Assembly (NCBI GenBank): GCA_964007475.1
Contig: OZ023273.1
Location: 33,664,436 to 33,728,435, forward strand
Source: Hybos culiciformis
Taxonomy: Eukaryota; Arthropoda; Insecta; Diptera; Hybotidae
DNA length: 64,000 nucleotides
Direction of reading: 5' to 3'
Shown: positions 3,943 through 49,031 of the stretch, piece by piece
Layout: each line of letters begins with the position of its first letter
Position numbering within the stretch: the first letter of the stretch is position 1
Notes under the pieces: generated by a model
Seen by the model: only the letters and a program-made list of their open reading frames with translations
Databases searched by the model: none
Told to the model about the DNA's origin: nothing
Position numbers and translations under genes: made by a program

Positions 3943-6244
3943 TCAAATATCAACACATTTCATATCGACACACATTTGGTTTTGTCCACAATTTGCACCA
4001 TTTGGAACCATACCGGGATTAGAACCAGAAAGTTCGTAATAAGCTGAATGGCATAGTCGGTACTTTCTGTCGTCTAAAATCCAAGAAGAATATGGAGAAA
4101 GATAATGTTGAATCGAAAATTTTAACGTCAATTCCTCTCCAGGAGTTTCGTGAGTGCACATCAATAAACCACATCTCTTACTATTATCATCGCATTTTGT
4201 ATAATTACTTATGCTGGGATCGAAGCCACAATGAGCAAAATATCTCCCTTCGGTGTTTAAATCAAAGCATTTGTTCTCAACAACGGCATCTAATCCAAAA
4301 AATTTTTGACATTGTTTAGAACGGCTTCCGCAGGAACCATTGTAACAATAAGCTTCTCCATCATTACATGGGGTTGCATTTGGAATAAAATCGTCAGCTG
4401 GGCAATCTCGGCTTCTACCATCGCAACTTTCTTGATAGTCACATTCACCTTTAGATGATCTGCAAACAATCCCGCGTGGTTTCGTTTGACAAGTATTCAA
4501 GTCACAACACTTTCCACTTCCACAAGTTGCATCTGGGGCTAGCTTGCATGTATTAGCGTCACAACATTTATTCTTACAAAACAAAGGAATTCCACAATCA
4601 CAATCTTCACCTATAATTTTCTTAGTTTAGTAAACATATCAACAAAAAAGAAGCATAAAAAATTTTTTGTATGTTTTTGTAAAAAAGTAACTTTTAAGTA
4701 CTGAAAAATTCGCACTTTGTCTTGACATCCATCTGAAACTATTTATGTTCATTTTTCAACAAAAATAAATTAAAAGCGGCTCAAGGGAAGTGTTTAAAAA
4801 AGATAAAATATTTTTTATCTGTTAAATTTATGTGAATACATTACCATCCTCAACTACACCATTTCCGCAGGTTGGTGAATCGAATATGCGATCTGGTTCA
4901 TTTTTTAAGCAGTTTGTTAAGCCAAGTTCAACAGAAGCATTAAATGCCTTTTCACTGCAACTACTCCAATGCAAATTTGGTACTTTTCTAGATATAGCAG
5001 ACATAACACATGGGTCTTCCGATGATGTGTAAGATTCATCACTTTCGTCGTGTATCATTCCAAACGCATGACCCATTTCGTGTGCAACAGTCACAGCAAC
5101 TTGAAGAATATCATCACTGTGGTTACTTATGATTCCACCAGACATTTTCAAAGAGCAAATAGTTTTCACATTGGATTTTCCTATTCAAAACAATATGTAA
5201 AATTAATTGTTACTTTTTTTTTTTTTATACGTAAGAAATTTGAAGAACTTTGAACATTTTATTTAAAAAAAAAAAAAATTAAAATTTTTGTCAAATGTTA
5301 GGCAAAATGGTCGGTTCGGTATTTCAATTAAAGAATTAAAGAATAACATTTCTTACCTATAACTCCACCATCAAATTTTTGATTTGTTAGCAACATTGCA
5401 TAATCATTCGGATATTTAGGTGTTATTTTTTTGGACCGATATTCGAAGAATTGGTTTAAAACTTTAAGGCTGTTTGCATCTATCGGGATTTCATTACCAT
5501 TCTTCCATATCACGACATCAGTTAATACTACATGAACATTTAAGGACGCGTAAATCTGAAAAATACGTTAAATTTTTTTAAAGAAGAAAAAGATTGAAGT
5601 TTTTAATTATACTTACAGCGTTTACATTGCTGATTAGATCTTTGGAATATTTATTTATTTCAGCAATATTTCTATTCATAGCATTATAAATACCGTTGTC
5701 AATGACCATTACTAGTTCTACATAAAGTGGTTCTCCGGCAGCCTCAGAACTAATTAAAACCTTTAAAATAATAATTTTGATTATAAATTAAAATCAGAAA
5801 TTTAAGGCAGTTAATTCTTTATTAAAAAATCTTATTCGAAGAAAATCGTGGTAGATAATGTGGATGCAATAATTTTTATAGGTTTCAATTTACATTAAGT
5901 GCTGCTTCGCAATAAAGGAAGGATTTTTAAAATTTTATCTATTTAATGTAATTGTATTTTTATATTGTTTAAATTAATTTTAAAGCTGTTTTTATTTTAA
6001 GGGTGTTAAATATTTTTAAATCCTAAAAACTTGTTTATGAAAACAGTTGGATGGGTGTGAAGATTAATAAAATAAATCTATCTCCTTCACTTTTTATATG
6101 ATACAACTTGGACCTTACGGTAGTAAAAAGCAGTTTTTTCCAAAATTATAAAATATTAAAAATACGTTACTATGAAAATTCAATTACATTGCAAATGGAT
6201 GCAAGGGAAAAAAAACCCAAAATTTTCCAACTATTAAACTTCAT
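3943..6244 (-). CDS. Secreted M12B metalloprotease-disintegrin, gene 1
   Basis: Five exons give 467 codons: 6188-6244, 5617-5760, 5357-5555, 4845-5180 and 3943-4610. All junctions are GT-AG, with phases 0, 0, 1, 1. Exon 1 is a 19-residue signal peptide (hydrophobic core ILGFFSLASIC). Exon 2 starts the catalytic fold with YVELVMVIDN. Exon 4 carries the zinc site HEMGHAFGMIHD and a CVMS Met-turn, then the disintegrin start CGNG. Exon 5 holds the rest of the disintegrin domain, with an ECD loop (GECDYQESC), and the cysteine-rich domain. Reprolysins cleave extracellular or membrane proteins with a Zn ion. There is no prodomain, EGF module or membrane anchor, so the product should be secreted. N-glycosylation sequons occur (NAT, NGS, NYT). 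The start is fixed by the signal exon lying just behind a TATA/initiator pair. A polyadenylation signal lies at 3913-3918. The domain call is firm; the biological role is unknown. Confidence 0.88.
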
Positions 6245-6267
6245 TGCCGCGTAAGTAATATAACAAG

Positions 6268-6303
6268 ACTGTAACTAGGCTTTAAAATAACTGGTTTTAT
6301 ATA
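6268..6303 (-). promoter_or_regulatory. TATA box and initiator, gene 1
   Basis: On the minus strand TATATAAAA (6295-6303) is followed about 30 bases later by ACAGT (6268-6272), the spacing of an insect TATA-initiator core promoter. The implied 5' leader is about 25 bases. Confidence 0.55.
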
Positions 6304-7870: not shown

Positions 7871-7984
7871 AAGTTTATACTTCTTTAGCCGCGTTTGATG
7901 ATTTTTGGTAGAGGGTAAAAATCCATTTTCGAATCGAATTTTTCTCGGAATCGTCATCATTTTTCTCAGAAAAATAAGAATAAG

Positions 7985-14602: not shown

Positions 14603-16901
14603 TCAAATATCAACACATTTCATATCGACACACATTTGGTTTTGTCCACAATTTGCACCATTTGGAACCATACCGGGATTAGAACCAGAAAGTTCGTAAT
14701 AAGCTGAATGGCATAGTCGGTACTTTCTGTCGTCTAAAATCCAAGAAGAATATGGATAAAGATAATGTTGAATCGAAAATTTGAACGTCAATTCCTCTCC
14801 AGGAGTTTCGTGAGTGCACATCAATAAACCACATCTTTTACTATTATCATCGCATTTTGTATAATTACTTATGCTGGGATCGAAGCCACAATGAGCAAAA
14901 TATCTCCCTTCGGTGTTTAAATCAAAGCATTTGTTCTCAACAACGGCATCTAATCCAAACAATTTTTGACATTGTTTAGAACGGCTTCCGCAGGAACCAT
15001 TGTAACAATAAGCTTCTCCATCATTACATGGGGTTGCATTTGGAATAAAATCGTCAGCTGGGCAATCTCGGCTTCTACCATCGCAACTTTCTTGATAGTC
15101 ACATTCACCTTTAGATGATCTGCAAACAATCCCGCGTGGTTTCGTTTGACAAGTATTCAAGTCACAACACTTTCCACTTCCACAAGTTGCATCTGGGGCT
15201 AGCTTGCATGTATTAGCGTCACAACATTTATTCTTACAAAACAAAGGAATTCCACAATCACAATCTTCACCTATAATTTTCTTAGTTTAGTAAACATATC
15301 AACAAAAAAGAAGCATAAAAAATTTTTTGTATGTTTTTGTAAAAAAGTAACTTTTAAGTACTGAAAAATTCGCACTTTGTCTTGACATCCATCTGAAACT
15401 ATTTATGTTCATTTTTCAACAAAAATCAATTAAAAGCGGCTCAAGGGAAGTGTTTAAAAAAGATAAAATATTTTTATCTGTTAAATTTATGTGAATACAT
15501 TACCATCCTCAACTACACCATTTCCGCAGGTTGGTGAATCGAATATGCGATCTGGTTCATTTTTTAAGCAGTTTGTTAAGCCAAGTTCAACAGAAGCATT
15601 AAATGCCTTTTCACTGCAACTACTCCAATGCAAATTTGGTACTTTTCTAGATATAGCAGACATAACACATGGGTCTTCCGATGATGTGTAAGATTCATCA
15701 CTTTCGTCGTGTATCATTCCGAACGCATGACCCATTTCGTGTGCAACAGTCACAGCAACTTGAAGAATATCATCACTGTGGTTACTTATGATTCCACCAG
15801 ACATTTTCAAAGAGCAAATAGTTTTCACATTGGATTTTCCTATTCAAAACAATATGTAAAATTAATTGTTACTTTTTTTTTTTTATACGTAAGAAATTTG
15901 AAGAACTTTGAACATTTTATTTAAAAAAAAAAAAATTAAAATTTTTGTCAAATGTTAGGCAAAATGGTCGGTTCGGTATTTCAATTAAAGAATTAAAGAA
16001 TAACATTTCTTACCTATAACTCCACCATCAAATTTTTGATTTGTTAGCAACATTGCATAATCATTCGGATATTTAGGTGTTATTTTTTTTGACCGATATT
16101 CGAAGAATTGGTTTAAAACTTTAAGGCTGTTTGTATCTATCGGGATTTCATTACCATTCTTCCATATCACGACATCAGTTAATACTACATGAACATTTAA
16201 GGACGCGTAAATCTGAAAAATACGTTAAATTTTTTTAAAGAAGAAAAAGATTGAAGTTGTTAATTATACTTACAGCGTTAACATTGCTGATTAGATCTTT
16301 GGAATATTTATTTATTTCAGCAATATTTCTATTCATAGCATTATACAAACCGTTGTCAATGACCATTACTAGTTCTACATAAAGTGGTTCTCCGGCAGCC
16401 TCAGAACTAATTAAAACCTTTAAAATAATAATTTTGATTATAAATTAAAATCAGAAATTTAAGGCAGTTAATTCTTTATTAAAAAATCTTATTCGAAGAA
16501 AATCGTGGTAGATAATGTGGATGCAATAATTTTTATAGGTTTCAATTTACATTAAGTGCTGCTTCGCAATAAAGGAAGGATTTTTAAAATTTTATCTATT
16601 TAATGTAATTGTATTTTTATATTGTTTAAATTAATTTTAAAGCTGTTTTTATTTTAAGGGTGTTAAATATTTTTAAATCCTAAAAACTTGTTTATGAAAA
16701 CAGTTGGATGGGTGTGAAGATTAATAAAATAAATCTATCTCCTTCACTTTTTATATGATACAACTTGGACCTTACGGTAGTAAAAAGCAGTTTTTTCCAA
16801 AATTATAAAATATTAAAAATACGTTACTATGAAAATTCAATTACATTGCAAATGGATGCAAGGGAAAAAAAACCCAAAATTTTCCAACTATTAAACTTCA
16901 T
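14603..16901 (-). CDS. Secreted M12B metalloprotease-disintegrin, gene 2
   Basis: Five exons: 16845-16901, 16274-16417, 16014-16212, 15504-15839, 14603-15270; 467 codons. It is the near-identical duplicate of gene 1 and differs by about five residues: Ile to Leu in exon 2, Ala to Thr in exon 3, and three changes in the cysteine-rich domain. Signal peptide, HEMGHAFGMIHD, CVMS, ECD loop and all cysteines are kept. Intron 1 is again only 427 bp and phase 0. No disabling change is seen, so both copies should make active enzyme if expressed. A polyadenylation signal lies at 14573-14578. Confidence 0.88.
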
Positions 16902-18425: not shown

Positions 18426-19747
18426 CTAATAATTTGGGTTGACATCTATCTTTGCGACTTTCATAATGGGCCGCTTCATTAATTTACCATTACATAATAA
18501 TGTTACAACTCGAAATATCTTATCTAGTCCTGGATGCAATTGCACAACCTTTCCTCGACGCCATTCATTTCTTGGTGCATTGTTGTCAACAATAAATACT
18601 AAGTCGTTGACTTTAATGTCTAGAGCGACCTCGTACCACTTGGTGCGTCTTGCTAGTTCAGGCAAAAATTCTAACCGCCATCGCTTCCAAAAATTATTCG
18701 CCAGTTGCTGAACAATTCGCCACTGTTTACGAAGATTTAAATCCAATTCTCTAAATTCACCAAGAGCGGGTGCACGATTAGCATTGAGTTTGATGAAATG
18801 ATTCGGTGTTAATGCATCTTCATCATCGGAACCTATTGGCACATGAGTAAGCGGTCTAGAATTTACGATATTTTCACATTCAATTAAAGCTGCGCGTAAA
18901 GTTTCGACTTGAGGTGCTTGTTCTTTTAATATTACTCCTAAAGCTGATCTAACGGATCGAATCATTCTTTCAACTGCACCATTAAAATGAGTTGCTGACG
19001 GTGGAATAAAATGCCAAATCGGAAAATTTTCTTCGTTAATTTTTATAAGATCAGGTGAACACTTTTGCAATTCCTTTAATAATTTATTGTTGGCACCATG
19101 AAAATTTGTACCGTTGCCTGAGTAGATATGTTGAACTGGACCACGACGATTAATAAAATTTCTCAAATTCATAATACAAGCATCTTTATTTAATGACATT
19201 ACTAATTCTATATGTATTGCTCTTATAACCATGTAAATATCATTCCCCAACATTTAACACGTCTTCTAAATATTGTTGCTTCAATTGGTCCAAACAAGTC
19301 AACGCCGGTATGAGTAAATGGTTTCTGTCCCCAATCTAGACGACTCACTGGCAAATTTCCCATCAGAGTTGGTTGAGGATGACTTTTATTTATTTTACAT
19401 TTTTGACACTTACTAATTACCCCTTTTAAAGTTGACCTGATATGAACAATCCAATACTTCCTTCTTAAAGCAGCAATTACCGATTCTTGAAATTGATGAA
19501 GGAAATTCTCATGATAATGTTGAACAATAAGATTTGTTATTCTGTGTTTACTGGGTAGAATGGCTGGCATTAATGATGACGACGACACATTTTTAATTGA
19601 TTTAATTCTACTGTTAACTACCAATATGTTATTGACCATAACTGGTGACAACGACCTTAAATTTGATTTTATTGGAAGACTGTTTTTATTTAATAACGAC
19701 AAATAATCGTTTTTGAATATATCATATTGCGCGAATTTAATTAACAA
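18426..19747 (-). pseudogene. BEL/Pao integrase, catalytic Asp lost
   Basis: Two overlapping frames. The first (19223-19747) carries an HHCC finger (HYHENFLHQF..CQKCKINKSHPQ) and the first catalytic Asp in TGVDLFGPI. The second (18426-19253) carries IYSGNGTNFHG and ATHFNGAVERMIRS. The family normally has IYSDNGTNF, so the second catalytic Asp is replaced by Gly. The frames are also out of register near 19223-19253. Confidence 0.75.
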
Positions 19748-19807
19748 ATTTTCAGCCTGTTGAATATTTTCATACGATAAAACTGGTCTAATATTATTTA
19801 ATTTAAC

Positions 19808-20608
19808 TTAGCTGAGTATTTTTAACTTGTTAGTATTTTTTGACGGATTACGACAATTAGTAATAAATTTGACGACATAACTCATAACCATACGAAGCTT
19901 GAAGAATGATGAATATTTTTCTACTGGCACAGCTGAAAAACTAACATTGGCATCATCAATTATGAATACTGGCTTTCGTTCTTCAAGACATTCAACTGTT
20001 CCCTCATATTCATTGTTTAACCATTCCTCTTCATCTTTTAATAAAAAATCCGGACCCTTAAACCAACGATCATCATTGCTGTAATTCATATTTTCAAACC
20101 ATTTAGTTCCATCATCTGCTACATTTGCTTTCGAGCTGACCTTTTGCCACTGACATGAATTTGACAATTCTTGAATTTCACCAATCCTAACACTAATAAA
20201 TGATTTGAACTTTTGTGGATCTTCAGACTTGATCCATAACAAGACAGTATTTGAATCTGACCAAAAATATTTATTAGCAATTTTGATTCGATGAAAACGT
20301 TCCACAGCGTCAGCTAATCTACTTCCTAGTACCGCAGCTTGGAATTCTAACCTTGGTATAGACAATACTTTGGTAGGTGCTACCTTTGCCTTTGATGTAA
20401 CCAATACCAGTCTAATTGATTCGTTAAATATTATTCGAAAATAAATCACAACACAAAACGCCTTTTCAGATGCATCTACAAATGTGTGCATCTCAATTTT
20501 CCTTGCTTGATGAATATTCGCAGTGTATAAACGAGGAATTTTTAAATTATTAATTGATTTCAAATTATTTATCCAATTACACCATTTATTAAATAACACA
20601 TCAGTCAA
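19808..20608 (-). pseudogene. BEL/Pao RNase H
   Basis: FVDASEKAF, PRLEFQAAVLG and WSDSNTVLLWI supply the D, E, D residues of RNase H. KANVADDGTKW matches the family end motif but with G in place of the usual serine. The frame stops before the integrase. Confidence 0.7.
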
Positions 20609-20611
20609 TTC

Positions 20612-22587: not shown

Positions 22588-22625
22588 TGCTACTGGAGAA
22601 TTTTCTGATCGTCAAATTTTTTTGA

Positions 22626-23472: not shown

Positions 23473-23495
23473 TTCTAAAAATTCATTAAAATCAT

Positions 23496-24221: not shown

Positions 24222-24357
24222 TTTATTTAAAATAATACTGGACGACACCAATCAAAATGAGAACCAAATCAATACTAGGCTAAAAAAATTTGCAAAAAAT
24301 TCACTAAAATATAAAAAGAAACTAGTAAAACTAAAATCCTCCCATGGGCCACCAAAA

Positions 24358-26017: not shown

Positions 26018-28983
26018 TTAAATTGCGACACACTTCTTATTGACACACATCTTATTATCACCACATTTGGCACCATTTCGAACCATACCAGGATTAATAT
26101 CGCCATGATCGTAATAAGCTGACTGACATTTTCGTAGTACTGCATTGTCATCATAAATCCAAGCGGAATAAGTGTCAATGAAAAGATGAGGGAAATGTTG
26201 AAATTCTAGAAATTCCTGAGGATTTTTATGACTGCACAACAATAAACCGCAACTCATGTTCTCATCCTCGCATTTTGTATAATTTTCATTGGCTGCATTG
26301 GATCCACAATGCGCATAATATTTTCCTTCTTTATTCAAATCGTAACATTTATTAACAATAACAGCATTTGATCCAAACAAATCCTTACATGGTTCAGAAC
26401 GGCTGCCACAGGACCCATTGTAACAATAAGCTTCTCCATCATTACATGGGGTTGCATTTGGAATATAATCATCAGCGGGGCAATCTCGGCTTCTGCCATC
26501 GCAACTTTCTTCATGGTCACATTCACCTTTAGATGGTCTACAAAGAACACCACTAGACTTCATTTGACATGTATTTAAGTTACAGCATTTTCCGTTTGCA
26601 CAAGCTGCATCAGGTACTAACTTACATGTGTTAGCATCGCAACACTTGCTTTTACAAAACATAGGTGTTCCACAATCACATTCCTCACCTAAAATTTTCT
26701 TCCTTAATATTTAATTTTTTAATCTTTAAATGATTTTAATACAATACCTTCCTCGACTATGCCGTTTCCACATGTTGGAGGATCGTATAAATGGTCTGGT
26801 TCATTTCTTAAACAATCTGTTATATTGTCAGAAACAGCAGCCAAAAATGCTTTTTCGCTACATTTACTCCAGCAGTTCAAATTCGGAATTTCTTTCACTG
26901 TCGCAGACATAACACATGTTTGATCTTCTGACGAATAGAATTCATCATTTTCATCGTGTATCATTCCAAAAGCGTGTCCCATTTCATGTGCAACAGTCGC
27001 AGCAACTTGTAGAATATCTTGACTATGCTTGTAAATAATTCCTCCAGATCGTTTCGTAGTGCAAATAGTTTTCACGGGAGATTTTCCTATTTAAAAAATT
27101 TAAAAACGTTACTTTTTAAAAATTGATTCTAAGAAACCGACACCGGGACATTAAACAAATACAAAAATTATTTATAACCATCATTCACTCTCTGTGAATT
27201 AGAATTTGTGTTAATATTATAATGCAATAATTGAAATAAAAAACTTCTAAAACCAAACAAAAAAATTATTATATTGTAATTTAGCTTGAAGATTTTTTAA
27301 CAAAGTAACTTATTTTTTTGAGAGCTGTACTATATAAATGTAGATGATAAAATTGTATTATGGAAAATATTGATTTGAATAAAACCACAAGAACAATATT
27401 AATAAAAATTTAAAAAACTCGAAAATATTAAATTGCTACATGAATAACAAATGTAAATAAAAAAAACCAACCTACAACTCCATAATCAAACTTTTGATTT
27501 GTTAACAAAATTGCTATATCATTCGGATATTTGGGTAGTATATTCACTAAACGATATTTTAAAAATTGTTCTAAAACTTGTTGGCTGTTGACTGTTACCG
27601 GGACTTCATCGGCATTCTTCCATATTAAGACATCAGTTAAGACTACGTGAACGTTTAAAGGCGCATAAATCTAAAAAAAATACCTTTCATTTTTATTTTG
27701 AGCCAGCATGTTTTGAAGCTTTGAATCTACTTACAGCATTAACGATATTAATCAATTCCTTACAATATTTTTTTGTCTCAGCATCATTTTCATGTAAGTC
27801 AGTATACATACTGTTGTCAACCACCAATAATAGTTCCACATAAAACGGATCTCTAGGTAATTGTGAACTAAGAAAGGCCTTTAAAAAAATAATTAAAGAT
27901 TAAAATTCTTATTATTGTCACGATATATAAAGATAATTTAAATTCAATTGTGTCCTCAATCAACACCGACATAAACTTCAAGCCGTCTTCTATATTTTTC
28001 ATATATTTTCACATATTTTCATATGATTATGATTTTCATGCCTACGATATCCTTTGAATTTAATTTTTATTTTTTGTAAAGGGCTGGAAATTTAAGTCTC
28101 AATTTAATAAAAAGAAATTCAAATAAACAGTAAGCAGGTGCTTAAAAAAAGCACTTATTTGCTTAGAAAATTAATATTATATTTTTTTGTTTTAAACTTT
28201 ATTTTAATAGGCATGGCATTATTTTCCACTAATGATTTTAATATCGGTACTGAATATAAATATTCCTGATAATTTCAATAGTTTTGTAATATCGAGATTA
28301 AAAAAGAGATATCCGTGCTTTCGACATTACCAAATTATTAATCTAAATTGAATTTTGAAGAAAGTATTTTATATTTTAAGATTAACATTTCCCGCACATT
28401 TTCAGCTTGGTTGATGCTAAAGTTTTCCTTATTCGAAGAGTCTTTACGTTTTTGTAGCAAAGTTTTAAAAATCTTTTGTGAAGTTGAGAAAATAGTAATT
28501 CAATTATCTATGTTTGTTTATCAACCAAATTGATTGTGATTTTTAGTATTTTTTCAAGCGTTTTAAAATTGTCCTTATTCTTTAAAAATAAGAAATATTC
28601 GAGTCAAAGTTATTAATGGTAATTAAATCACAATCCGTTTGTTTTAAAGTTGGCTTAAACAGGTTATATATTTTAATTTAATTAATATTGAAATGCAACA
28701 TTACCATAAAGTAAGTATAAATAAGAGAAATTTATTCCATACAAAAACGCAAATTAAAAAAAAGAAACAAAAAATATTAAAACACATGAAATCACTATCC
28801 CAATTGATTACAATTCCCTTTCAGTTCAGATATTTTGATATGTTTAATTTTATATTTTATATAAAATTAAAAGACTTAAATGAAGATATTGTTCAAAAGT
28901 TTAAAAATAATAAAATTATTACATACATTTTCAATAGATACCAGGGCGAAAAAAAATAAAATTTTCCAAAAACTTGGCTTCAT
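26018..28983 (-). CDS. Secreted M12B metalloprotease-disintegrin, gene 3
   Basis: Five exons: 28927-28983, 27735-27878, 27472-27670, 26748-27086, 26018-26688; 469 codons, same phases as gene 1. A signal peptide begins MKPSFWKIL. The catalytic exon set holds YVELLLVVDN, HEMGHAFGMIHD and CVMS. The disintegrin loop is GECDHEESC. Compared with genes 1 and 2 it has an extra Cys in exon 2 (KKYCK for KYSK), a one-residue longer Met-turn approach (SSEDQTCVMS) and a clearly different cysteine-rich domain. Intron 1 is 1048 bp and shows no prodomain-like frame. Its closest relative here is gene 4. It is probably secreted and active. Confidence 0.87.
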
Positions 28984-29038: not shown

Positions 29039-29238
29039 GAAAAATTTATTTAGTTAATGTTTAATTAAAATGTTAATTGTTATTGATTATTCAGATGTAT
29101 TATGAAGTACTGAACAAGTAAATTTCAATCTTAGTACAGCCGCAGTTAATGTATTGTTTTTTTCATAATTTGATGTTTGTTTTATTTTTTATTTTCAAGG
29201 CCTTTAATTTAATTAATCCTCAGCAACAAATTTCTCAA

Positions 29239-31778: not shown

Positions 31779-34700
31779 TTAAATTACGACACACTTCTTA
31801 TTGACACACATCTTGTTCTCACCACATTTGGCACCATTTCGAACCATACCAGGATTAATATCGCCATGATCGTAATAAGCCGATTGACATTTTCGTAGTT
31901 CTTTATTGTCATCATAAGCCCAAGCGGAATATGTGTCAATGAAATTATGAAGAGAAAGTTGAAATTCTAGAAATTCCTGAGGATTTTTATGACTACACAA
32001 TAATAAACCGCAATTCATGTTCTCATCGTCGCATTTTGTATAATTTTCATTGGCTGCATTATATCCACAATGCGCATAATGTTTTCCTTCTTTATTCAAA
32101 TCGTAACATTTATTAACAATAACAGCATTTGATCCAAACATATTTTTACACGGTTCAGAACGGCTGCCACAGGAACCATTGTAACAATAAGCTTCTCCAC
32201 CATTACATGGGGTTGCATTTGGAATGTAATCATCAGCGGGACAATCTTGGCTTCTACCATCGCAACTTTCTTCATGGTCACATTCACCTTTAGATGGTCT
32301 ACAAAGAACACCACTAGACTTCATTTGACATGTATTTATGTTACAGCATTTTCCGTTTGCACAAGCTGCATCAGGTACTAACTTACATGTGTTAGCATCA
32401 CAACACTTGCTTTTACAAAACATAGGTGTTCCACAATCACATTCCTCACCTAAAATTTTCTTCCTTAATATTTCATTTTATAATATTTAAATGATTTTAA
32501 TACAATACCTTCCTCGACTATGCCGTTTCCACATGTTGGAGGATCGTATAAATGGTCTGGTTCATTTCTTAAACAATCTGTTATATTGTCAGAAACAGCA
32601 GCCAAAAACGCTTTTTCGCTACATTTACTCCAGCAGTTCCAATTTGGAATTTTTTTCACTGTCGCAGACATAACACATGTTTGATCTTCTGACGAATAGG
32701 ATTCATCATTTTCATCGTGTATCATTCCAAAAGCGTGTCCCATTTCGTGTGCAACAGTCACAGCAACTTGTAGAATATCGCTAGTATGCTTGTAAATAAT
32801 TCCTCCAGATCGTTTCGTTGTGCAAATAGTTTTGACGAGAGATTTTCCTATTTAAAAAATTTAAAAACGTTACTTTTTAAAAATTAATTCTACGAACACT
32901 GGGACATTAAACAAATACAAAAATTATTTATAACCATCATTCACTCTCTGTGAATTAGAATTTGTGTTAATATTATAATGCAATAATTGAAATAAAAAAC
33001 TTCTAAAACCAAACAAAAAAATTATTATATTGGAATTTAGCTTGAAGATTTTTTAACAAAGTAACTTATTTTTTTGAGAGCTGTACTATATAAATGTAGA
33101 TGATAAAATTGTATTATGGAAAACATTGATTTGAATAAAACCAAAAGAACAATATTAATTAAAATTAAAAAAGAATTGGAAAATATTTAATTGATTATAT
33201 GAATATCAAATGTAAATAAAAAAATACTAAATAGTTTTAAAAACCACGTTTTTAAATTGACTAAAAAGAAAATAAAAATTTTTCTCCGGAGGCCCACGTT
33301 TCTAGTTATAGACTGTTGTAATCAGTTTCAAGTATGTGTGTCCACAATCCTCCGGAGAAAAATTTTTATTTTCTTGTTTTTAGTCAATTTAAAAACGTGG
33401 CTTTTAAAACTTTTTTATTTAGTATTTATTTTCTTCTTTTTAGTCAACTATTCGTCAACCCGTATTTAGATACGGACTCTGACTGATTTATGTTTTTTAC
33501 GAAATTTGTGTCCTCTTTTTGTGTACCAAATTTGAATGAAATCGGACAAACTTTTGAAGTCCTCCCTAGAGAAGGTCGCTGGGTAGGAGGCCAATAAATT
33601 TTTTGTTACGAAATTTGTGTGTTTAATAGTTTCCTCTTTTTATTAACCAAATTTGAATGAAATCGGACGAGCTTTTGAAGGAGGTCGCTGGGTAGGAGGC
33701 CAACAAGTTTTTTGTTACGAAATTTGTGTGTTTAATTATATCCTCTTTTACTGTACCAAATTTGAATGAAATCGGACGAACTTTTCAAGTCCTCCTCAAG
33801 GGAAGGTCGCTGGGTAGGAGGCCAATAAACTTTTTGTTACGAAATTCGTGTGTTCAATCATTTCTTCTTTTTATGTACTAAATTTGAATGAAATCGGTCG
33901 AAAATTTGATTGTTGTGAAAATTTGATTGCAAAATTTCGCTGGCAGACAAACAGACAAGAAACTTTTCACATTATGATTAAAGTGGTAGAATATTGCATT
34001 GTCATCGGGTTCAGAGCTATATTAAAAGTTGCGGGAGCTGTAGCTTGTCGGAAAATGGTATAAAATTTGATTACAAAATTTCGTGGACAGACAAACAGGC
34101 AAAAAAGTGAGTTAATAAAAACGTTGTAATAATAAAAACAAACCTATAACTCCATCAAACTTTTGATTTGTTAACAAAATTGCAATATCATTCGGATATT
34201 TGGGTAGTATCTTCACTAAACGATATTTTAAAAATTGTTCTAAAACTTGTTGGCTGTTGACTGTTATCGGGATTTCATTGCCATCTTTCCATATTAAAAC
34301 ATCAGTTAAGGCTACTTGAACATTTAAAGGCGCATAAATCTAAAAAAAACCCTTTTAATTTCAGCATAGCAAGTTTTAAAGTTTTGAATTTACTTACAGC
34401 ATTAACAGTATTAATCAAATTTTTACAATATTTTTTTATCTCAGCATCACTTTTATGAAACTCAGTATACATACTGTTGTCAACCACCAATAATAGTTCC
34501 ACATAAAACGGATCTCTAGGTAATTGTGAACTAAGAAAGGCCTTTAAAAAAATAATTAACGATTAAAATTCTTATTATTGTCACGATATATAAAAAAAAT
34601 TTAAATTCTATTGTGTCCTCAATCATAACTGACATAAACTTCAAGCCGCCCTCTATATTTTTCATATGTTTTCACATATTTTCATATGATTATGATTTTC

Positions 34701-35609
34701 ATGCCTACGATATCCTTTGAATTTAATTTTAATTTTTTGTAGAGGGCTTGAAATTTATGTCTCTCTCAATTAAAATTTTAATAAAAAGAAATTCAAATAA
34801 ACAGCAATCAGGTGCTAAAAAAAGCACTTATTTGCTTAGAAAATTAATATTATATTTTTTTGTTTTAACTTTATTTTAACAGGCATGGCATTATTTTCCA
34901 CTAATGATTGTAATATCGGTACTGAAAATAAATATTCCCGATAATTTCAATAGTTTTGTAATATCGAGATTAAGTGCTTTCGACATTACCAAAATATTAA
35001 TCTAAATTGAATTTTGAAGAAAATACTTTATATTTTAAGATTAACATTTCGCGCACATTTTCAGCTTGTTTGATGCTAACGGTTTTATAAAAGTTTTATA
35101 AATCTTTTGTGAAGTTGAGAAAATAGTAACTCAATTATCTATGTTTGTTTATCAATCAAATTGATTTTGATTTTTAGCATTTTTTCAAGCGTTTTAAAAT
35201 TGTCCTTATTCTTTAAAAATAAGAAATATTCGAGTCAAAGTTATTAATGGTAATTAAATCACAATCCGTTTGTTTTAAAGTTGGCTTATACAGGTTATAT
35301 ATTTTAATTTAATTAATATTGAAATGCAACATTACCATAAAGTAAGTATAAATAAGAGAAATGTATTCCATACAAAAACGCAAATTAAAAAAAGAAACAA
35401 AAAATATTAAAACACATGAAATCACTATCCCAATTGATTACAATTCCCTTTCAGTTCATATATTTTGATATGTTTAATTTTATATTTCATATAAAATTAA
35501 AAGACTTAAATGAAGATATTGTTCAAAAGTTTAAAAATAATAAAATTATTACATTTTCAATAGATACCAGGGCGAAAAAAGCTAAAATTTTCCAAAAACT
35601 TGGCTTCAT
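31779..35609 (-). CDS. Secreted M12B metalloprotease-disintegrin, gene 4
   Basis: Five exons: 35553-35609, 34398-34541, 34144-34339, 32509-32847, 31779-32449; 468 codons. One codon is missing from the end of exon 3 (FDGVIG against FDGGV), in frame. The zinc site HEMGHAFGMIHD, CVMS, ECD loop and cysteine pattern are intact. The disintegrin domain has DGRSQDCP and ATPCNGG variants. The intron between exons 3 and 4 (32848-34143) is enlarged by a foldback and a minisatellite. Intron 1 is 1011 bp without a prodomain frame. It is the closest relative of gene 3. Confidence 0.87.
33223..33426. mobile_element. Foldback element in intron of gene 4
   Basis: ~75-base arms ('aatactaaat' ... 'ctccggagg' at the left, mirrored at the right) flank a ~56-base centre. 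Gene 3 lacks it at the same place, so it arrived after the two genes separated, or was lost there. Confidence 0.65.
33487..33905. repeat. Minisatellite, ~110-120-bp unit, about four units
   Basis: Units start near 33495, 33605, 33716 and 33838 with 'ttacgaaatttgtgt' or 'ttacgaaattcgtgt'. They contain 'aaatttgaatgaaatcgg' and 'ggtcgctgggtaggaggcca'. The last unit is partial. It follows directly on the foldback. Confidence 0.75.
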
Positions 35610-39641: not shown

Positions 39642-42600
39642 TTAAATGGCGACACACTTCTTATTGACACACATCTTATTATCACCACATTTGGCACCAT
39701 TTCGAACCATACCAGGATTAATATCGCCATGATCGTAATAAGCCGATTGACATTTTCGTAATACTTTATTGTCATCAAAAACCCAAGCAGCATTTGTGTC
39801 AATGAAATGATGACGAAAATGTTGAAATTCTAGAAATTCTTGAGGATTTTTATGACTACACAACAACAAACCGCAGTTTATGTTCTCATCATCGCATTTT
39901 GTATAATTTTCATAGGCTGGAGTAGATCCACAATGCGCAAAATATTTTCCGTCTTTATTCAAATCGTAACATTCATTAACAATAACTGCATTTGATCCAA
40001 ACAAATTCTTACACGGTTCAGAACGGCTGCCACAGGAACCATTGTAACAATAAGCTTCTCCATCATTACATGGAGTTGCGTTTGGAATATAATCATCAGC
40101 GGGGCAATCTCGGCTTCTACCATTGCAACTTTCTTCATGGTCACATTCACCTTTAGATGGTCTACAAAGAACACCACTAGACTTCATTTGACATGTATTT
40201 ACGTTACAGCATTTTCCGTTTGCACAAGCTGCATCAGATACTAACTTACATGTGTTAGCATCGCAACACTTGCTTTTACAAAACATAGGCGTTCCGCAAT
40301 CACATTCCTCCCCTAAAATTTTGGCCTTAATATTTCATTCTTTAATATTAAAATTATTTTAATAAAATACCTTCCTCGATAATACCATTTCCACATGTTG
40401 GAGGATCGTATAAATGGTCTGGTTCGTTTACTAGACAATCTGTTATATTGTCAGAAACAGAAGCCAAAAATGCTTTTTCGCTACATTTACTCCAGCAGTT
40501 CAAATTTGGGATTTCTTTAACTGTCGCAGACATAACACATGTTTGATCTTCTGACGAATATGATTCATCACTTTCATCATGTACCATTCCAAAAGCATGT
40601 CCCATTTCGTGTGCAACAGTCACAGCAACTTGTAGAATATCGTGACTATGCTTGTAAATAATTCCTCCAGATCGTTTCGTAGTGCAAATAGTTTTCACGT
40701 TAGATTTTCCTATTTAAAGTATAAAAACCTTACTTTTCAAAAATCAATTAATTCTAAGAACTCGACACTTTCTGGAACATTAAATAAATATAAAAATTAA
40801 TTCTAACTATAACATTCACTTATTTTGAATTTTTTTGTTATATGAATTAGAATTTGTGTTAATGGAATTATCAAAATAAAAAACTTATAAAACTCTTTTT
40901 TAAAGATGATGAGAGAATGAAAAGCATAATCGATCTTTAGAAATTACGACAAACTTTAGATAAATTTAGAAGATAAACTTTACGTTGACGAAAATTTAAA
41001 TAAGTATTTTAATTTTCAAGTCCTATACAATGTGAAATAACAACCTTCATAGATAATAAAATTGTATTTGGGAAACACAAGTGGATGCCTTAATACCTAA
41101 TGACATAAAGTCTAATCTCTTATGACTTAGACTTAGACTTTATTTCGTTAGGTGTTAAGACACCCCACCGAAAAAAACTGATTTCAAATAAAATGAAAAG
41201 AACAATTTAATAAAATTACGAACATCAAATGTAAATGAAAAAAAAACCAACCTACAACTCCACCATCAAACTTTTGATTTGTTAACAAAATTGCAATATC
41301 ATTCGGATATTTAGGTAGTATATTCACTAAACGATGCTTTAAAAATTGTTCTAAAACTTGTAGGCCGTTGGCTGTTATCGGGATTTCATCGCCATCCTTC
41401 CATATTAAAACATCAGTTAAGGCTACTTGAACGTTTAAAGGCGCATAAATCTAAAAAAACACTTTTAATTTCCGCTAGCAAGTTTTTAAGTTTTGAATTT
41501 ACTTACAGCATTTACAGTATTAATCAAATCCTTACAATATTTTTTTATCTCAGCATCATTTTTATGTAACTCATTATATATACTGTTGTCAATTACTAAT
41601 ACTAGTTCCACATAAAAAGGATCTCCAGCTAACTGTGCGCTAATAAAGGCCTTTAAATAAATAATTAAAGATTAAAATTGTAATTATTGTCACGATGTAT
41701 AAAAAATTTAATTCTCCCTTCTTAATAAAATATATGTATAAACAGCAAAATATCTAATTTAAGAAATAAATTTAAAGGAATCATACAAAAAGTACAAAAA
41801 AAAATTGTATTCCTTTTATAAAACAATCATTTCCAAATATTTTTCCGGTTCTACTTCCAATTATTTTTCATTGAAATTGGTTAAAATTTTATATTCATTG
41901 GGATTTGTTTTATATTTATAAATTTCTTCAAGAATTTTTCCATATTTAACATACGTACACAATTAAAAAATTATTAATTAAAAATTAAATTTAAATAAAT
42001 ATTGTTCAAATTTTTAAGAAGAAAATTTTAAAAAATCGCAACTACTGGCTAGAGAAACATAATTTATCTATTGGCCGAACAACTCGATAAGTCGGACTTA
42101 AACAAAAACTTTAATCACTTAATTAATTTATAAATTATACCAAATTATACAAATTTGAAAATAAAATTTATTTTTGATCTAAAGAAAATATGAAATATGG
42201 AAAAGTATTTATTATCAACTTAAAAAAAAATATATATATTTATTTCATTTATCATACATTTGAAATTTCAAGAAAATATTTTTTGAAGAAACAACAACAA
42301 AATAGAAAATCCCAAATGGAGGGTTGGAAAATTATATACAAAACGCTGTAAAATATGTGCTAATCCGAAATTCTTGATTTTTTTGTAAAATGTGGTAAAT
42401 AAAATTAAATAAAAAGTGATTGATAAAAAAGTGATTAATTAGTTGTATAGGATTTCCACCATCCTTATCTCTTAGATTTAAGTTTCTTTAATTATGTTTA
42501 TAAAAAAAAAAAAAACTATTGTAAATATTCTGTGGACAAATAAATAATTGAATTATATAAAATTAAAAAACTAAAATTGTTCAAAAGTATAAAAATTAAT

Positions 42601-42668
42601 AAAACTATTACATTTTCAATAGATACCAGGGCGAAAAAAACTAAAATTTTCCAAAAACTTGACTTCAT
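39642..42668 (-). CDS. Secreted M12B metalloprotease-disintegrin, gene 5
   Basis: Five exons: 42612-42668, 41507-41650, 41252-41450, 40371-40709, 39642-40312; 469 codons, same phases. The zinc site is HEMGHAFGMVHD (Val for Ile), with CVMS, ECD loop GECDHEESC and CNGRSRDCP. Exon 2 keeps the extra Cys (KKYCK). The signal exon begins MKSSFWKIL. A 5'-side intron of 961 bp has no prodomain frame. Its closest relative is gene 6, with which it shares a palindrome in the intron between exons 3 and 4. A polyadenylation signal lies at 39591-39596. Confidence 0.87.
41082..41169. repeat. Palindromic repeat in intron of gene 5
   Basis: 'acctaatgacataaagtc' is mirrored by 'gactttatttcgttaggt'. The same palindrome stands in the same intron of gene 6 (47150-47230) and is absent from genes 1-4. 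Confidence 0.7.
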
Positions 42669-42690
42669 TGTTGCGAATTAAAATTATTAA

Positions 42691-44304: not shown

Positions 44305-47300
44305 TTAAATTGCGACACACTTCTTATTGACACACATCTTGTTCTCACCACATTTGGCACCATTCCGAACCATACCAGGATTAATATCGCCATGATCGTA
44401 ATAAGCAGATTGGCATTTTCGTAGAACTTTATTGTCATCAAAAACCCACCCGGAATTTGTGTCAATGAAATGATGACGGAAATGTTGAAATTCTAGAAAT
44501 TCTTGAGGATTTTTATGACTACACAACAATAAACCGCAACTCATGTTCTCATCAGCGCATTTTGTATAATTTTCATAGGCTGGAGTAGATCCACAATGCG
44601 CATAATATCTTCCATCTTTATTCAAATCGTAACATTCATTAACAATAACTGCATTTGATCCAAACAAATTCTTACACGGTTCAGAACGGCTGCCACAGGA
44701 ACCATTGTAGCAATATGCTTCTCCATCATTACATGGGGTTGCATTTGGAATAAAATCGTCAGCTGGGCAATCACGGCTTCTACCATTGCAACTTTCTTCA
44801 TGGTCACATTCACCTTTAGATGGTCTACAAAGAATACCACTAGACTTCATTTGACACGTATTTATGTTACAGCATTTTCCATTTGCACAAGCTGCATTAG
44901 GTACTAACTTACATGTGTTAGCATCGCAACACTTACTTTTACAAAACATAGGTGTTCCACAATCACATTCCTCACCTAAAATGTTCTTCCTTAATATTTC
45001 ACTTTATAATATTTAAATGATTTTAATACAATACCTTCCTCGACTATGCCGTTCCCACATGTTGGAGGATCGTATAAATGGTCTGGTTCATTTCTTAAAC
45101 AATCTGTTATATTGTCAGAAACAGCAGCCAAAAATGCTTTTTCGCTACATTTACTCCAGCAGTTCAAATTTGGAATTTCTTTAACTGTCGCAGACATAAC
45201 ACATGTTTGATCTTCTGACGAATAAGATTTATCACTTTCATCGTGCACCATTCCAAAAGCGTGTCCCATTTCGTGTGCAACAGTCACAGCAACTTGTAGA
45301 ATATCGCGATTATTCTTGTAAATAATTCCTCCAGATCGTTTCGTAGTGCAAATAGTTTTCACGAGAGACTTTCCTATTTAAAAAATTTAAAACGTTACTG
45401 CTTAAAAATTAATTCTAAGAAACAGAAACTTGGACTTTAAATAAATAAAACAATTAATTGTAATTATAACATTCACTTTTTTTTAATTTTGTTTTTATAT
45501 GAATTTTAGAATTTGTGTTAAGGAAATTATTAAAATATAATTTTTATAAAACTAATTTTTAAAGATGATAATAGATGAAAAAGCATAATAGGCCTAAAAA
45601 ATTACGACAAACTTTTTGATAAATTTAAAAGGTAAACGTAACGGTAACGAAAACTTAAATAAGTCTTTTAATGCGTTGGGGATCGTTATGTTGTATTTAG
45701 TGCTATAGAATTTAGATCACTAAATGGAGTATTATATGCGTCAATACACATGCAATCATTTAGATACATCTGCGTAAATAATGAAAAAATTTAGATGCAT
45801 CAGCGTATATAATGAAAAAATTTAGATACATCAGCGTAAATAATAAAATCATTTAGATGTTTCGTATTAAATATTACGTAATACCTAACAAACATAATAT
45901 CTCTCACAATATTTCAATACAGCCAAATGCAAAAAAAAAAAAAGAGAAAAAATGAGAAGAAAAAATATTCTCTTTTTGCAACTACCTCTCCCCTACGCAT
46001 TAAAACAGTATATTGGATATGTAAACAAAATTTGTTATACAACTCGTTCTGTATTTACACAAAAATACATTGACACTTGTCAATTTATATCTCTCGACCT
46101 TCGGTCTCGTGATATAAGTATTGACTGGTGTCAATGTATTTTTATGTATACAGAACTCTTAATTAATAACAAATTTAGTTTACATATACAATAATCTACT
46201 ATTAATTTTCAAGTCCTATACAATGTGAAATAATAGGGAGTGTATAATCTCGAAAAAAAAAATCTTGAAAAAAACTCGAAAAAAAAAATCTCGAAAAAAA
46301 ATTTCAAAAAAAAAAAACTTCGAAAAAATTAATCTCGAAAAATATAAAAAAAATCTCGAAAAATCTCGAAAACAGAAATCAAGATTTCGGGTCTTGGGCT
46401 CTACCTCGAAAAAAAAACTATAAAAAAAAACCTCGGAAAAACAAGCCTCGAAAAAAAAAACTTCGAAAAAAAACCTGGAAAAAAAAAACCTCGAAAAAAA
46501 AAAACCTGGAAAAAAAAAACCTCGAAATGAAAGAACCTTGAAGGTTTTTTTTTCGAGGTTCTTTCCTAGTCGCTTATCTTTTACTATTAAGCACAATTCC
46601 CATACAAATTTTCTGAGAGTAAAATTATTGTGATTAAAAGCGGAAACAAAATAGTTTATTTATTAATTTTGGGATCAATACAGTTTACAGTAAGTAATTC
46701 AGCGTATAATAATTCAACGTATAGCAACTCATCGTATAGCAATTCATCGTATAGCAATTTACCGTATGAGCAATTCACCGTATGAGCAGTTCACCGTACA
46801 GCAATTCACCGTATAGCAATTCACCGTATGAGGAATTCACCGTATGAGTATTTCATCGTTTTGGTTATGTATGCGAGGTTTGAATTTGTAAATTTGTGGT
46901 GGGGCGGGGCGGGGGTTGGTCAGTGGGATTTGCTGCTGGCGCAATATGTATATATTTTTTTTTGCGTCGCGCGCGCGATCCAAAACTAAAAAATTCGAGA
47001 TATTTTTTTTCGAGATTTTTTTTTTCGAGTTTTTTTTTTCGAGATTTGTTTTTTACGAGATTTTTTTTCGGGTTTTTTTCGAGATGGTGTTACAGACCCA
47101 AAATAATAATCTACGCAGATAATAAAATTGAATTTGGGGAAAATAAGTGAGGGAGCTTTAACACCTAACGACATAAAGTCTAATGACTTAGACTTAGACT
47201 TTATGTCGTTAGGTGTTAAAGCACCCCACCAAAAAATATTGATTTCAAATAAAATGAAAAGAATAATTTGATATAAATTAAAAAAATTAAAACTAGAAAA

Positions 47301-49031
47301 CATTGAATTGAATTTATGAATAAAATGTAAATGAAAAAAAACCAACCCATAACTGCACCATCAAACTTTTGATTTGTTAACAAAATTGCAATATCATTCG
47401 GATATTTGGGTAGTATATTCACTAAACGATGGTTTAAAAATTGTTCTAAAACTTGTAGGCTGTTGGCTGTTATCGGAATTTCATCGCCATCCTTCCATAT
47501 TAAAACATCAGTTAACACTACTTGAACGTTTAAAGGCGCGTAAATCTAAAAAAAAAACACTTTTAATTTCCGCTAGCAAGTTTTGCAGTTTTGAATTTAC
47601 TTACAGCATTTACAGTATTAATCAAATTCTTGGAATATTTTTTTATCTCAGCATCATTTTTATGTAACTCATTATATATACTGTTGTCAATTACTAATAC
47701 TAGTTCCACATAAAAAGGATCTCCAGCTAACTGTGCACTAATAAAGGCCTTTAAATAAATAATTAAAAATTAAAATTGTAATTATTGTCACGATGTATAA
47801 AAAATTCAATTTTCCCCTCTTAATAAAATATATGTATAAACAGCAAAATATCTAATTTAAGAAATAAACTTAAAAGAATCATACAAAAAGTACAAAAAAA
47901 TTGTTTTTCATTGAAATTGCTTAAAATTTTATATTCATTGGGATTTCTTTTATATTTATAAATTGCTTCAAGAATTTTTCCATATTTACCATACATACAT
48001 ACATAAATTACAAAAATATATACATTTATTTCATTATCATGCATTTGAAATTTAAAGAAAATTTTTGCTGCGATACAACAACAAAACGAATTGAAAATCC
48101 GAAATGGAGAGTTGGAAAATTCGACACAAAACGCTGTAAGTTATGTGGCATTTTTTCTTAAAAGGCAAATAAAGAGACTTCTTTTCAAAAATAACTCGAT
48201 TTCAAAAGTCAAAATTCAAAGCTAAAAATAGTGATTTAGATATCAAATTAATTTCATTTTTTATATTCTGAAAACTTAAAATTTTGGGATTGGCGATTTG
48301 AAAGTTAGAATTCTTATTAAGTGCTAAGTAGATGTGAAACTTTCAGGTCTAAAATGAACCATTTTCCTAGGCTCATCAAGGGAACTATTTTGAATTTGAG
48401 GTTCACAAAACTATCTTTACAACTACACTAAATTTCAAAGAAACTCTATTTTTGAAATTGCGTCAGATTGCGCGTTCTTAAAAATAAAGGGTTTTCAAAA
48501 TTAATTAATAAAAAAAAATAAACATAAATGATTGGATGTACATCCAAAAGGGGGGCATGATATACATAGATGAGGTCTTCACTAAACGCTACTTTATGCC
48601 CGCAAATGACATCCATCTAGTGGCCTAAAAATGCAACAGAACTGTTTCAAAAATCTGTATTTTGCAATTTTTTCCATAATGGTAAATCCGAAATTCTTGA
48701 TTTTTTTAAAATGTAGACAATAAAATTCTACAAATTCCAAAAAGAAAATATTGAAAAATCTTTAATGACTTGGAGTAAATTGGTCAAATGAAATCTATCC
48801 AAAACTCGATTTTGACAACAGCACCTGTCTTCTGTTGTGCAAATGATGCAGGCCTCGTATAACGCAACTTAAATATATTATTCTCTTTCCATTCATATAT
48901 TTTAAATTTTATATTTTATATAAAATTAAAAAACTAAAATTGTTCAAAAGTATAAAAATTAATAAAATTATTACATTTTCAATAGATACCAGGGCGAAAA
49001 AAGCTAAAATTTTCCAAAAACTTGACTTCAT
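44305..49031 (-). CDS. Secreted M12B metalloprotease-disintegrin, gene 6
   Basis: Five exons: 48975-49031, 47605-47748, 47347-47545, 45035-45373, 44305-44975; 469 codons, same phases. The zinc site HEMGHAFGMVHD, CVMS and ECD loop are intact. Exon 2 has KYSK like genes 1 and 2, so the extra Cys of genes 3-5 is missing. The exon 3 end is GAVMG with donor G|GTTGG. The intron between exons 3 and 4 has grown to ~2 kb with several repeats. Intron 1 is 1226 bp; its insertion at ~48141-48682 relative to gene 5 has no coding signal. It is the rightmost member of the array. Confidence 0.87.
45750..45862. repeat. Tandem repeat, ~32-bp unit
   Basis: Three to four units of 'atttagatacatcagcgtaaataatgaaaaa'-type sequence with small changes, just left of the short foldback relative. 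Confidence 0.6.
45876..46202. mobile_element. Short relative of the branched foldback element
   Basis: It shares 'cacaatatttcaatacag' and an A-rich run with the left part of 412-2108. It ends with the same hairpin type, arms flanking 'ctcgaccttcggtctcgtgatata', and the terminal 'ctactatta'. It lacks the long central inverted repeat. It sits in the large intron of the sixth metalloprotease gene, between its catalytic exons. Confidence 0.55.
46237..46555. repeat. Degenerate (CTCGAAAAAAA)n tract
   Basis: Runs of A separated by 'ctcg' or 'ctgg'. The opposite orientation (ttttttcgag) appears at 46996-47085, so the two tracts could pair. The Phe-rich open frame across it is an artefact. Confidence 0.7.
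46698..46860. repeat. Minisatellite, ~15-bp unit 'ttcaccgtatagcaa'
   Basis: About eleven units with point changes (cat/acc, tagc/tgagc). It lies between the two mirrored Cys-Gly-rich-looking 'ctcgaaaa' tracts in the intron of gene 6. Confidence 0.75.
46898..46982. other. G+C-rich islet in A/T-rich intron
   Basis: 'gtggggcggggcgggggttgg' followed within ~60 bases by 'gcgtcgcgcgcgcgatc' stands out from its surroundings. No gene or promoter is recognised. Confidence 0.5.
47150..47230. repeat. Palindromic repeat in intron of gene 6
   Basis: 'acctaacgacataaagtc' mirrored by 'gactttatgtcgttaggt'; partner of 41082-41169 and more perfect than it. Confidence 0.7.

Follow-up and report, generated by a model that had tools for sequence, protein, structure and literature searches.

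P-III snake venom metalloproteases are soluble derivatives of ADAM proteases that occur in many copies. As described in a 2016 structural review (PMC4885070), M12B proteinases carry a prodomain, typically of about 200 residues (also about 200 aa in the P-III enzymes), which adjoins the signal sequence and has been suggested to aid folding and latency; ADAMTS13 is an exception, with a short and dispensable prodomain. No natural prodomain-less M12B, ADAM or reprolysin family was found among the papers that literature searches retrieved, as judged by titles and abstract openings. VRF1, which these searches brought up, is described as having a prodomain, and the passages on asilid venom that were consulted name no M12B enzyme.

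We found six tandem metalloprotease-disintegrin genes (g1 to g6), all on the minus strand, at positions 3943..49031 of the window, a 64,000-nucleotide stretch of the genome of Hybos culiciformis, the only species in which this family has been observed so far. A mitochondrial match to Hybos speaks against an origin of the DNA in a wasp or tick. They share the soluble MDC layout of the P-III snake enzymes, and their nearest solved structures are catrocollastatin (2dw0), ecarin (9clp) and VAP1 (2ero), the best at E 1.3e-73 (g4 against catrocollastatin); they differ in that no prodomain was found, and they are of separate origin, in a dipteran rather than a snake genome. Dipteran Meltrin/ADAM12-like ADAMs (P0117, which bears the name Meltrin isoform D, and the Hybos loci L047 and L048) likewise have M12B, disintegrin and ADAM_CR domains, and g4 shares about 42-43% identity with drosophilid proteins, among them P0117 and P0002/P0003. 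Unlike these, the window family has no detected prodomain, KCG switch or KR at the junction with the catalytic domain, and is without the EGF part, the transmembrane part and the catalytic CxC. ADAMTS13 counts as a precedent for a prodomain-less reading, although it keeps a short furin-cleaved propeptide and has the ADAMTS architecture, that of a different subfamily.

Gene and domain anatomy of the array

Each of the six models has five exons, a single stop and 467-469 residues, and all 24 introns are GT-AG. The order of parts is putative signal peptide, M12B catalytic domain, disintegrin, cysteine-rich domain, stop (Table 1). In every gene exon 1 has 57 nt (19 codons) and ends in phase 0, and exon 2 starts in phase 0 and reaches YVEL after 12 residues; intron 1 measures 427, 427, 1048, 1011, 961 and 1226 bp in g1 to g6, respectively. 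These models agree with the initial annotation, which had described six tandem genes, a 19-codon phase-0 exon followed by a phase-0 catalytic exon, about 9-12 residues before YVEL, and a 427-bp intron 1 in g1 and g2. A seventh family copy (g0) lies immediately to the left of the window, and chromosome 3 has two more (c3a and c3b). An Rfam scan gave no match.

Table 1. Positions of gene parts and upstream words in the window
Gene	Feature	Positions	Strand	Remark
g1	TATA words	6295..6303	-	-59/-57 from ATG
g1	exon 1	6188..6244	-	putative signal peptide, 19 codons, phase 0 end
g1	intron 1	5761..6187	-	427 bp; prodomain exon not found (HMM, tblastn)
g1	exon 2	5617..5760	-	catalytic domain start, 12 aa before YVEL
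g1	exon 3	5357..5555	-	catalytic
g1	exon 4	4845..5180	-	HExxH, Met-turn, disintegrin start
g1	exon 5	3943..4610	-	disintegrin, ADAM_CR, stop
g2	exon 1	16845..16901	-	putative signal peptide
g2	exon 2	16274..16417	-	
g2	exon 3	16014..16212	-	
g2	exon 4	15504..15839	-	HExxH
g2	exon 5	14603..15270	-	
g3	exon 1	28927..28983	-	putative signal peptide
g3	exon 2	27735..27878	-	
g3	exon 3	27472..27670	-	
g3	exon 4	26748..27086	-	HExxH
g3	exon 5	26018..26688	-	
g4	exon 1	35553..35609	-	putative signal peptide
g4	exon 2	34398..34541	-	
g4	exon 3	34144..34339	-	
g4	exon 4	32509..32847	-	HExxH
g4	exon 5	31779..32449	-	
g5	exon 1	42612..42668	-	putative signal peptide
g5	exon 2	41507..41650	-	
g5	exon 3	41252..41450	-	
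g5	exon 4	40371..40709	-	HExxH
g5	exon 5	39642..40312	-	
g6	TATA word	49082..49088	-	-57 from ATG; TCAGTT at -28
g6	exon 1	48975..49031	-	putative signal peptide
g6	exon 2	47605..47748	-	
g6	exon 3	47347..47545	-	
g6	exon 4	45035..45373	-	HExxH
g6	exon 5	44305..44975	-	

Exon 1 has the same 57-nt length in all eight intact copies (the six window genes, g0 and c3b). Between g1 and g4 it aligns without gaps at 41/57 identity, against about half in the flanks (24/48 at -110..-60, 29/58 at -60..0) and in intron 1 (52/100, with 20 gap columns), and thus appears conserved beyond chance. A TATA word stands 55-59 bp upstream of the ATG in each window gene (-55 to -61 in 8/8 intact copies), and such a word occurs at -64..-48 from 2.3% of random positions; the word patterns were picked after the sequences had been viewed, in DNA that is 72% AT and in which TATA words are common, and the g1/g4 segment -60..0 is conserved no better than the flank. 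The TCAGTT of g6 we take to be insect-initiator-like. The TATA word before each ATG suggests that the 19-codon signal exon is the first exon of the gene.

In a Pfam scan of g1, Reprolysin (PF01421) matched at 2.8e-46 over model positions 2-200 of 200, and disintegrin (PF00200) and ADAM_CR (PF08516) matched as well; neither an EGF domain nor thrombospondin type 1 repeats, an ADAMTS trait, were found. The stop codon falls at the end of the cysteine-rich domain in all six genes, so the EGF, transmembrane and cytoplasmic-tail parts of a membrane ADAM do not follow. All six have the HExxHxxGxxH zinc motif, as HEMGHAFGM(I/V)H, and the CVMS Met-turn; the zinc motif is also present in g0 and c3b. Columns E34, D118, C224 and N227 of the calcium site, a site described in PMC4885070, are retained in g1 and g4. 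The disintegrin and cysteine-rich part has 28 Cys in each of the eight intact copies. The catalytic CxC pair, kept in catrocollastatin, P0001, P0003, P0009, L047, L043 and L013, is missing from all six window genes; g3-g6 have an extra Cys, and c3b has lost further cysteines. The initial annotation had all catalytic, Met-turn and cysteine residues kept, which is right for the zinc motif and Met-turn and wrong for the cysteines.

Search for a prodomain

No prodomain with a cysteine switch is detectable in the window genes. A profile HMM was built from 34 N-terminal regions, including the short one of P0001, and run against 10,703 ORFs: it matched exons of L047 (three), L048 (two) and L050, with no match at E<=5 in the window or at the remaining loci, while leaving unseen two of the four known L048 prodomain exons. 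A second L050 row (residues 697-740) is not prodomain. Searching intron 1 and upstream sequence by HMM, as the initial annotation had proposed for the introns, gave no prodomain exon in intron 1; four of six control exons scored E<0.01 there, one scored E 3.1 and one was missed.

When their own prodomain exons were used as tblastn queries, L047 and L048 detected one another, with E values from 2.6e-19 to 9.9e-5, except for the switch exons, which were mutually undetected; the best match in the window (E 0.23, 14 residues) lay outside the genes. Another tblastn used 66 of 68 N-terminal pieces of outside and own proteins at E<=0.5 and gave 104 rows, the pieces of P0102 and P0110 (38 of 142 rows) being left out because they held catalytic or EGF sequence after automatic cutting. 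Most rows (87/104) fell in L047, L048 and L050. Ten were in the window: eight on catalytic exon 2, from pieces that overran, and two on the plus strand, at 25457-25540 with E 0.34-0.37. The KCG motif of the cysteine switch is carried by L047 and L048 and by none of the 849 ORFs on the gene strand across intron 1 and the 3 kb upstream; KR at the prodomain/catalytic junction is likewise found in L047 and L048 and in none of the window genes. The Pfam propeptide model matched neither g1 nor P0002, P0003 and P0009, proteins with prodomain-like sequence, and a genome scan with PF01562 gave zero matches anywhere, control loci included, and is therefore uninformative. The claim that the prodomain is absent thus holds in the HMM and both tblastn searches, in which same-genome controls were positive, though not for every exon, and hidden prodomain exons are rejected as far as these searches reach.

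We collected 181 outside proteins, including 120 of the 244 matches from one search, and 179 of them match the catalytic HMM: 46 are without the catalytic start, and the stretch ahead of the catalytic domain exceeds 120 aa in 118 and is 120 aa or shorter in 15. Read by eye, only P0001 among these 15 resembles a signal peptide plus short linker; the other 14 look cut, or begin within the prodomain or catalytic domain.

Relatives, selection and copy number

P0001, a predicted protein from Sitodiplosis mosellana, resembles the window family in its signal-peptide-like start, with 67 aa before the catalytic domain, and in having no propeptide match, but has HQIGH (catalytic Glu lost) and, by eye, an EGF-like region. 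Closer at hand, L013 and L043 of the same genome also have no core prodomain found by HMM and tblastn; unlike the window family they keep CxC and a short linker exon (without Cys in L013), with EGF-like segments seen by eye in both and a transmembrane-like segment in L013. In a midpoint-rooted tree of 25 of the 181 outside proteins and 14 own rows, L013 and L043 group with the window family (98/97), and prodomain-bearing L047 is sister to them all (86/91). This placement suggests that the prodomain was lost by grades within one genome: full (L047), linker (L013, L043), none. In L047 and L048 exon 2 ends where that of the window family does. P0001 has a different place in the tree (weak support, 88/59), and its prodomain loss was therefore probably independent.

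All 16 between-subfamily pairs have dN/dS of 0.24-0.27, at dS 0.79-0.93; the catalytic segment of g1 against g4 has dN 0.226 and dS 0.852. The ratio is 1.9 for c3b against g1 and 0.38-0.53 for the remaining close pairs among g0, g1 and g2. Purifying selection suggests that the window genes are working genes. That the array is instead decaying, with prodomain loss as the first step of pseudogenization, would suit c3a, which is broken by a stop in the signal exon, a frameshift in exon 2 and a deletion in exon 5, as well as L045/L046, which appears disrupted, and L051, which is without HExxH. The six window genes, g0 and c3b nevertheless have open frames, splice sites and TATA words are retained, and the between-subfamily ratios lead us to reject general decay, which we regard as highly improbable; the initial description of these as not decayed is sustained.

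The array may also have been inflated in assembly by uncollapsed haplotypes, leaving a lower true gene number. The tandem units of g1 and g2 are near-identical (96.6-100% in the three longest pieces), and this pair may represent an uncollapsed haplotype; the assembly comes from a PCR-amplified ultra-low-input library with contig N50 of 0.43 Mb (PMC12744202). For the array we consider inflation unlikely, as g3-g6 differ among themselves at dS 0.10-0.18, and from g0, g1 and g2 at the between-subfamily values, and the window has no N; gene anatomy is in any case independent of copy number.

Origin, maturation and alternatives

We think it probable that these genes form a secreted, lineage-specific M12B family of Meltrin/ADAM12-like origin that has lost its prodomain and is matured by signal peptidase alone. 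The ancestor would have been a membrane protease of the Meltrin/ADAM12 kind, and three sets of features would have disappeared: the prodomain exons together with the cysteine switch and the KR site for processing, the EGF and transmembrane parts, and the catalytic CxC pair. The phase-0 signal exon would then be spliced straight to the phase-0 catalytic exon, and signal peptidase would cut a few residues before YVEL, making in one step a mature N-terminus equivalent to that which conventional ADAMs owe to furin. No covalently attached segment would keep the enzyme latent as it enters the secretory pathway, and it would fold with no chaperone built into its own chain. Its restraint would most likely be ADAMTS13-like, by low inherent activity together with strong selectivity through exosites, and/or come from inhibitors or conditions in the secreting tissue. 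The ecology of a predatory dance fly points to likely use in saliva or venom, or in extra-oral digestion.

It is doubtful that these are conventional ADAM/SVMP zymogens with overlooked prodomain exons, highly divergent, very short or driven by an unrecognised upstream promoter. Some control exons escape the HMM and tblastn, as could an exon that is tiny or divergent, and the 961-1226 bp of intron 1 in g3-g6 have room for small exons; on the other side are the 427-bp introns of g1 and g2, with nothing prodomain-like found, the related loci that yield prodomain exons with the same tools, and, in all eight intact copies, a 57-nt exon 1 preceded by its TATA word. We see a similarly small chance that the products are secreted adhesive or decoy proteins, for which proteolysis would be irrelevant and latency unneeded. 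Loss of CxC in all six, further cysteine loss in c3b, and the HQIGH of the likewise prodomain-poor P0001 fit such a role, but the zinc motif and Met-turn, the calcium-site residues and the low dN of the catalytic segment argue against it.

Within the favoured account of a secreted, prodomain-less family, we offer more tentatively an active ADAM-type clade in dance-fly saliva or venom with rewired disulfides, which would enable it to fold and stay harmless in the complete absence of a prodomain, a fly counterpart of the snake venom metalloproteases with its intermediates still in the genome. The cysteines retained after CxC loss would have re-paired, and both would have been lost together in c3b.

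A safety segment common to nearly all M12B enzymes has apparently been lost in these dance-fly genes, whose products would be folded and restrained by other means. The Hybos genome offers a natural deletion series, in which other ADAMs keep the prodomain fully or as a linker, and a prodomain-less family under purifying selection makes the question of what the prodomain is for testable. If the reading is true, this fly may have arrived at soluble, venom-like proteases along a path parallel to the one taken by snakes.

Gene models and first exon

The tandem array of six metalloprotease-disintegrin genes (g1-g6) reported by the initial annotation is real: the five-exon models are intact, 24 of 24 introns are GT-AG, and HExxHxxGxxH and the Met-turn are in place. 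The Pfam scan, made among window proteins for g1 alone, gives Reprolysin (32-229), Disintegrin (244-318) and ADAM_CR (323-407). Among solved structures, those closest to g4 belong to P-III snake venom metalloproteases, with 2dw0 at E 1.3e-73. The near-identical units holding g1 and g2 may reflect either recent duplication or an uncollapsed haplotype.

Gene parts, neighboring features and related loci
Feature	Position or size	Strand	Remarks
g1-g6	3943-49031	minus	467-469 aa
Exon 1	57 nt	minus	signal exon, each of g1-g6
Exon 2	144 nt	minus	each of g1-g6
Exon 3	196-199 nt	minus	g1-g6
Exon 4	336-339 nt	minus	HExxHxxGxxH, Met-turn, g1-g6
Exon 5	668-671 nt	minus	disintegrin, cysteine-rich part, stop, g1-g6
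Tandem units	1-21000		two, each about 10.6 kb, with g1 and g2; 96.6-100% identity (three longest pieces)
Retroelement ORFs	18426-24251	minus	between g2 and g3; BEL/Pao-like by eye
Minisatellite	about 29116-29870		14-bp array that begins upstream of g3, ~100-200 bp from the TATA word
Open frame	51874-52293	minus	PDZ-domain-like by eye; probably a neighboring gene
c3b	L011 7018-9314 (C3)		intact, chromosome 3; small in-frame deletion
L051	6984-7928 (C3:44.47 Mb)		ADAM copy without zinc motif
L050	4515-7022 (C223; 19 kb, unplaced)	minus	intronless 836-codon ADAM frame with prodomain
Second ADAM cluster	C1:28.35-28.48 Mb		L048/L049, L047, L043/L044, L013, L045/L046

Using TATA and initiator patterns picked after the sequences were seen, we found a TATAAAA or TATATAA word starting 55-61 bp before the ATG in all eight intact copies (55-59 in the window genes, 61 in g0, the copy just left of the window, and 59 in c3b), while 2.3% of random minus-strand positions have such a word at -64..-48; a word resembling the initiator consensus lies at -28 in all six window genes, and the patterns give none there in g0 and c3b. 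Conservation over -60..0 (29/58) is no better overall than over -110..-60 (24/48). Between g1 and g4, exon 1 is identical at 41 of 57 positions, gap-free; the first 110 bp of intron 1 give 52/100 with 20 gap columns.

Searches for a prodomain

An HMM built from 34 N-terminal regions was used to search 10,703 ORFs taken from the window plus 14 fetched loci. At E<=5 its prodomain matches were confined to the fly's ADAM loci, with three exons in L047, two of the four in L048, and L050, and with none in the window or remaining loci. By tblastn the fly's own prodomain exons gave mutual L047-L048 matches (E 2.6e-19 to 9.9e-5), none of them between the cysteine-switch exons (KGKCGV in L047, TTKCGF in L048); the top window match, at E 0.23, spans 14 residues and lies outside the genes. 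A set of 68 N-terminal pieces, minus two mis-cut, yielded 104 tblastn rows at E<=0.5, with 87 from L047, L048 and L050 and 10 from the window: eight are catalytic exon 2, and two lie at 25457-25540 on the strand opposite to the genes (E 0.34-0.37).

An HMM search of the introns, proposed in the initial annotation, covered 849 ORFs on the gene strand, drawn from intron 1 and the 3 kb upstream in all six genes. It returned no prodomain exon (best match E 4.7), and a KCG-like switch occurs in 0 of the 849. Control exons were partly recovered (four of six at E<0.01, one at E 3.1, one unseen), and these misses limit the sensitivity of the search. The Pfam propeptide model has no match on g1, which is no proof by itself because fly proteins P0002 and P0003 (drosophilid) and P0009 are also silent despite prodomain-like sequence. 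At the level of the genome there is good support for reading these genes as prodomain-free.

Relatives in the genome

The window lies on contig C1 of the genome, whose mitochondrial contig encodes an ND4 matching Hybos culiciformis at every one of 446 residues; the next match, H. grossipes, is at 96%. The available portions of the genome note (PMC12744202) give 342.56 Mb, with chromosomes 1 and 3 at 152.39 and 48.25 Mb and a 17.59-kb mitochondrion; Table 1 lists PacBio HiFi and Hi-C, 21,343 mRNAs are annotated, and these portions contain no word starting with RNA or transcriptom. Beyond the window, g0 and c3b are intact, and c3a, also on chromosome 3, is broken by a signal-exon stop, a frameshift and a deletion. 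In the second ADAM cluster, L048/L049 and L047 have a prodomain, a KCG switch and KR at the junction. L043/L044 and L013, in which a short linker exon was all that was found in place of a prodomain, have by eye EGF-like segments (and L013 a transmembrane-like segment); L045/L046 appears disrupted. As we read the models, L047, L048, L013 and the window genes all begin exon 2 in phase 0, so removal of an exon block between a phase-0 signal exon and exon 2 would preserve frame.

In a midpoint-rooted tree of 39 rows, support was 100/100 for the window family, 94/85 for the short-linker group, 98/97 for the two together, and 86/91 for L047 as their sister. L051, on a long branch, was placed with the short-linker genes. 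Among 133 proteins reaching the catalytic start, the sole other prodomain-poor one is P0001, predicted from Sitodiplosis mosellana, which begins like a signal peptide and has next to no prodomain; it lacks the catalytic Glu (HQIGH replaces HExxH), and it falls away from the window family with weak support. L050 DNA is 43% GC, against 23% in L048; this locus may be foreign DNA or a retrocopy.

Cysteines, selection and possible role

Cysteines were said to be all kept, but the catalytic CxC pair, 157/159 in standard numbering and the partners of 181 and 164, is missing from all six window genes. Catalytic cysteines number four in g0, g1 and g2, six in g3-g5, five in g6 and two in c3b. The last lacks both 191 and 208, and this joint loss suggests, without proving, that they pair with each other. 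Nei-Gojobori dN/dS (own script) is 0.24-0.27 between subfamilies (16/16 pairs), 0.16-0.44 within g3-g6, 0.38 for g1-g2, 0.53 for g0-g1 and 0.47 for g0-g2. The outlier is c3b against g1, at 1.9 (~58 nonsynonymous to 8 synonymous changes, zero nonsynonymous in the disintegrin domain), which marks c3b as a possible case of rapid or positive selection.

Signal peptidase would make the sole maturation cut required, leaving by the -3,-1 rule for signal-peptide cleavage the predicted N-termini QLAGDPF-YVEL, QLPRDPF-YVEL or EAAGEPL-YVEL. A simpler disulfide set may lessen the need for a chaperone. ADAMTS13 is a precedent, an M12B enzyme secretable and active without its propeptide; the propeptide has no Cys-switch and the metalloprotease domain appears latent in conformation by itself (PMC3787661, PMC6706451). 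Restraint of the window enzymes might be analogous, or come from gland conditions or inhibitors.

The asilid venom papers, in the parts available, name M13 and M12A enzymes, with M12B not among them, and a further one has no word starting with metallo, M12 or disintegrin. The number of copies, the signal peptide with no membrane anchor and the predatory habit of the fly suggest use in saliva/venom or extra-oral digestion, but reproduction is a possible alternative role. Judged by its gene structure, the window family is a new M12B form.
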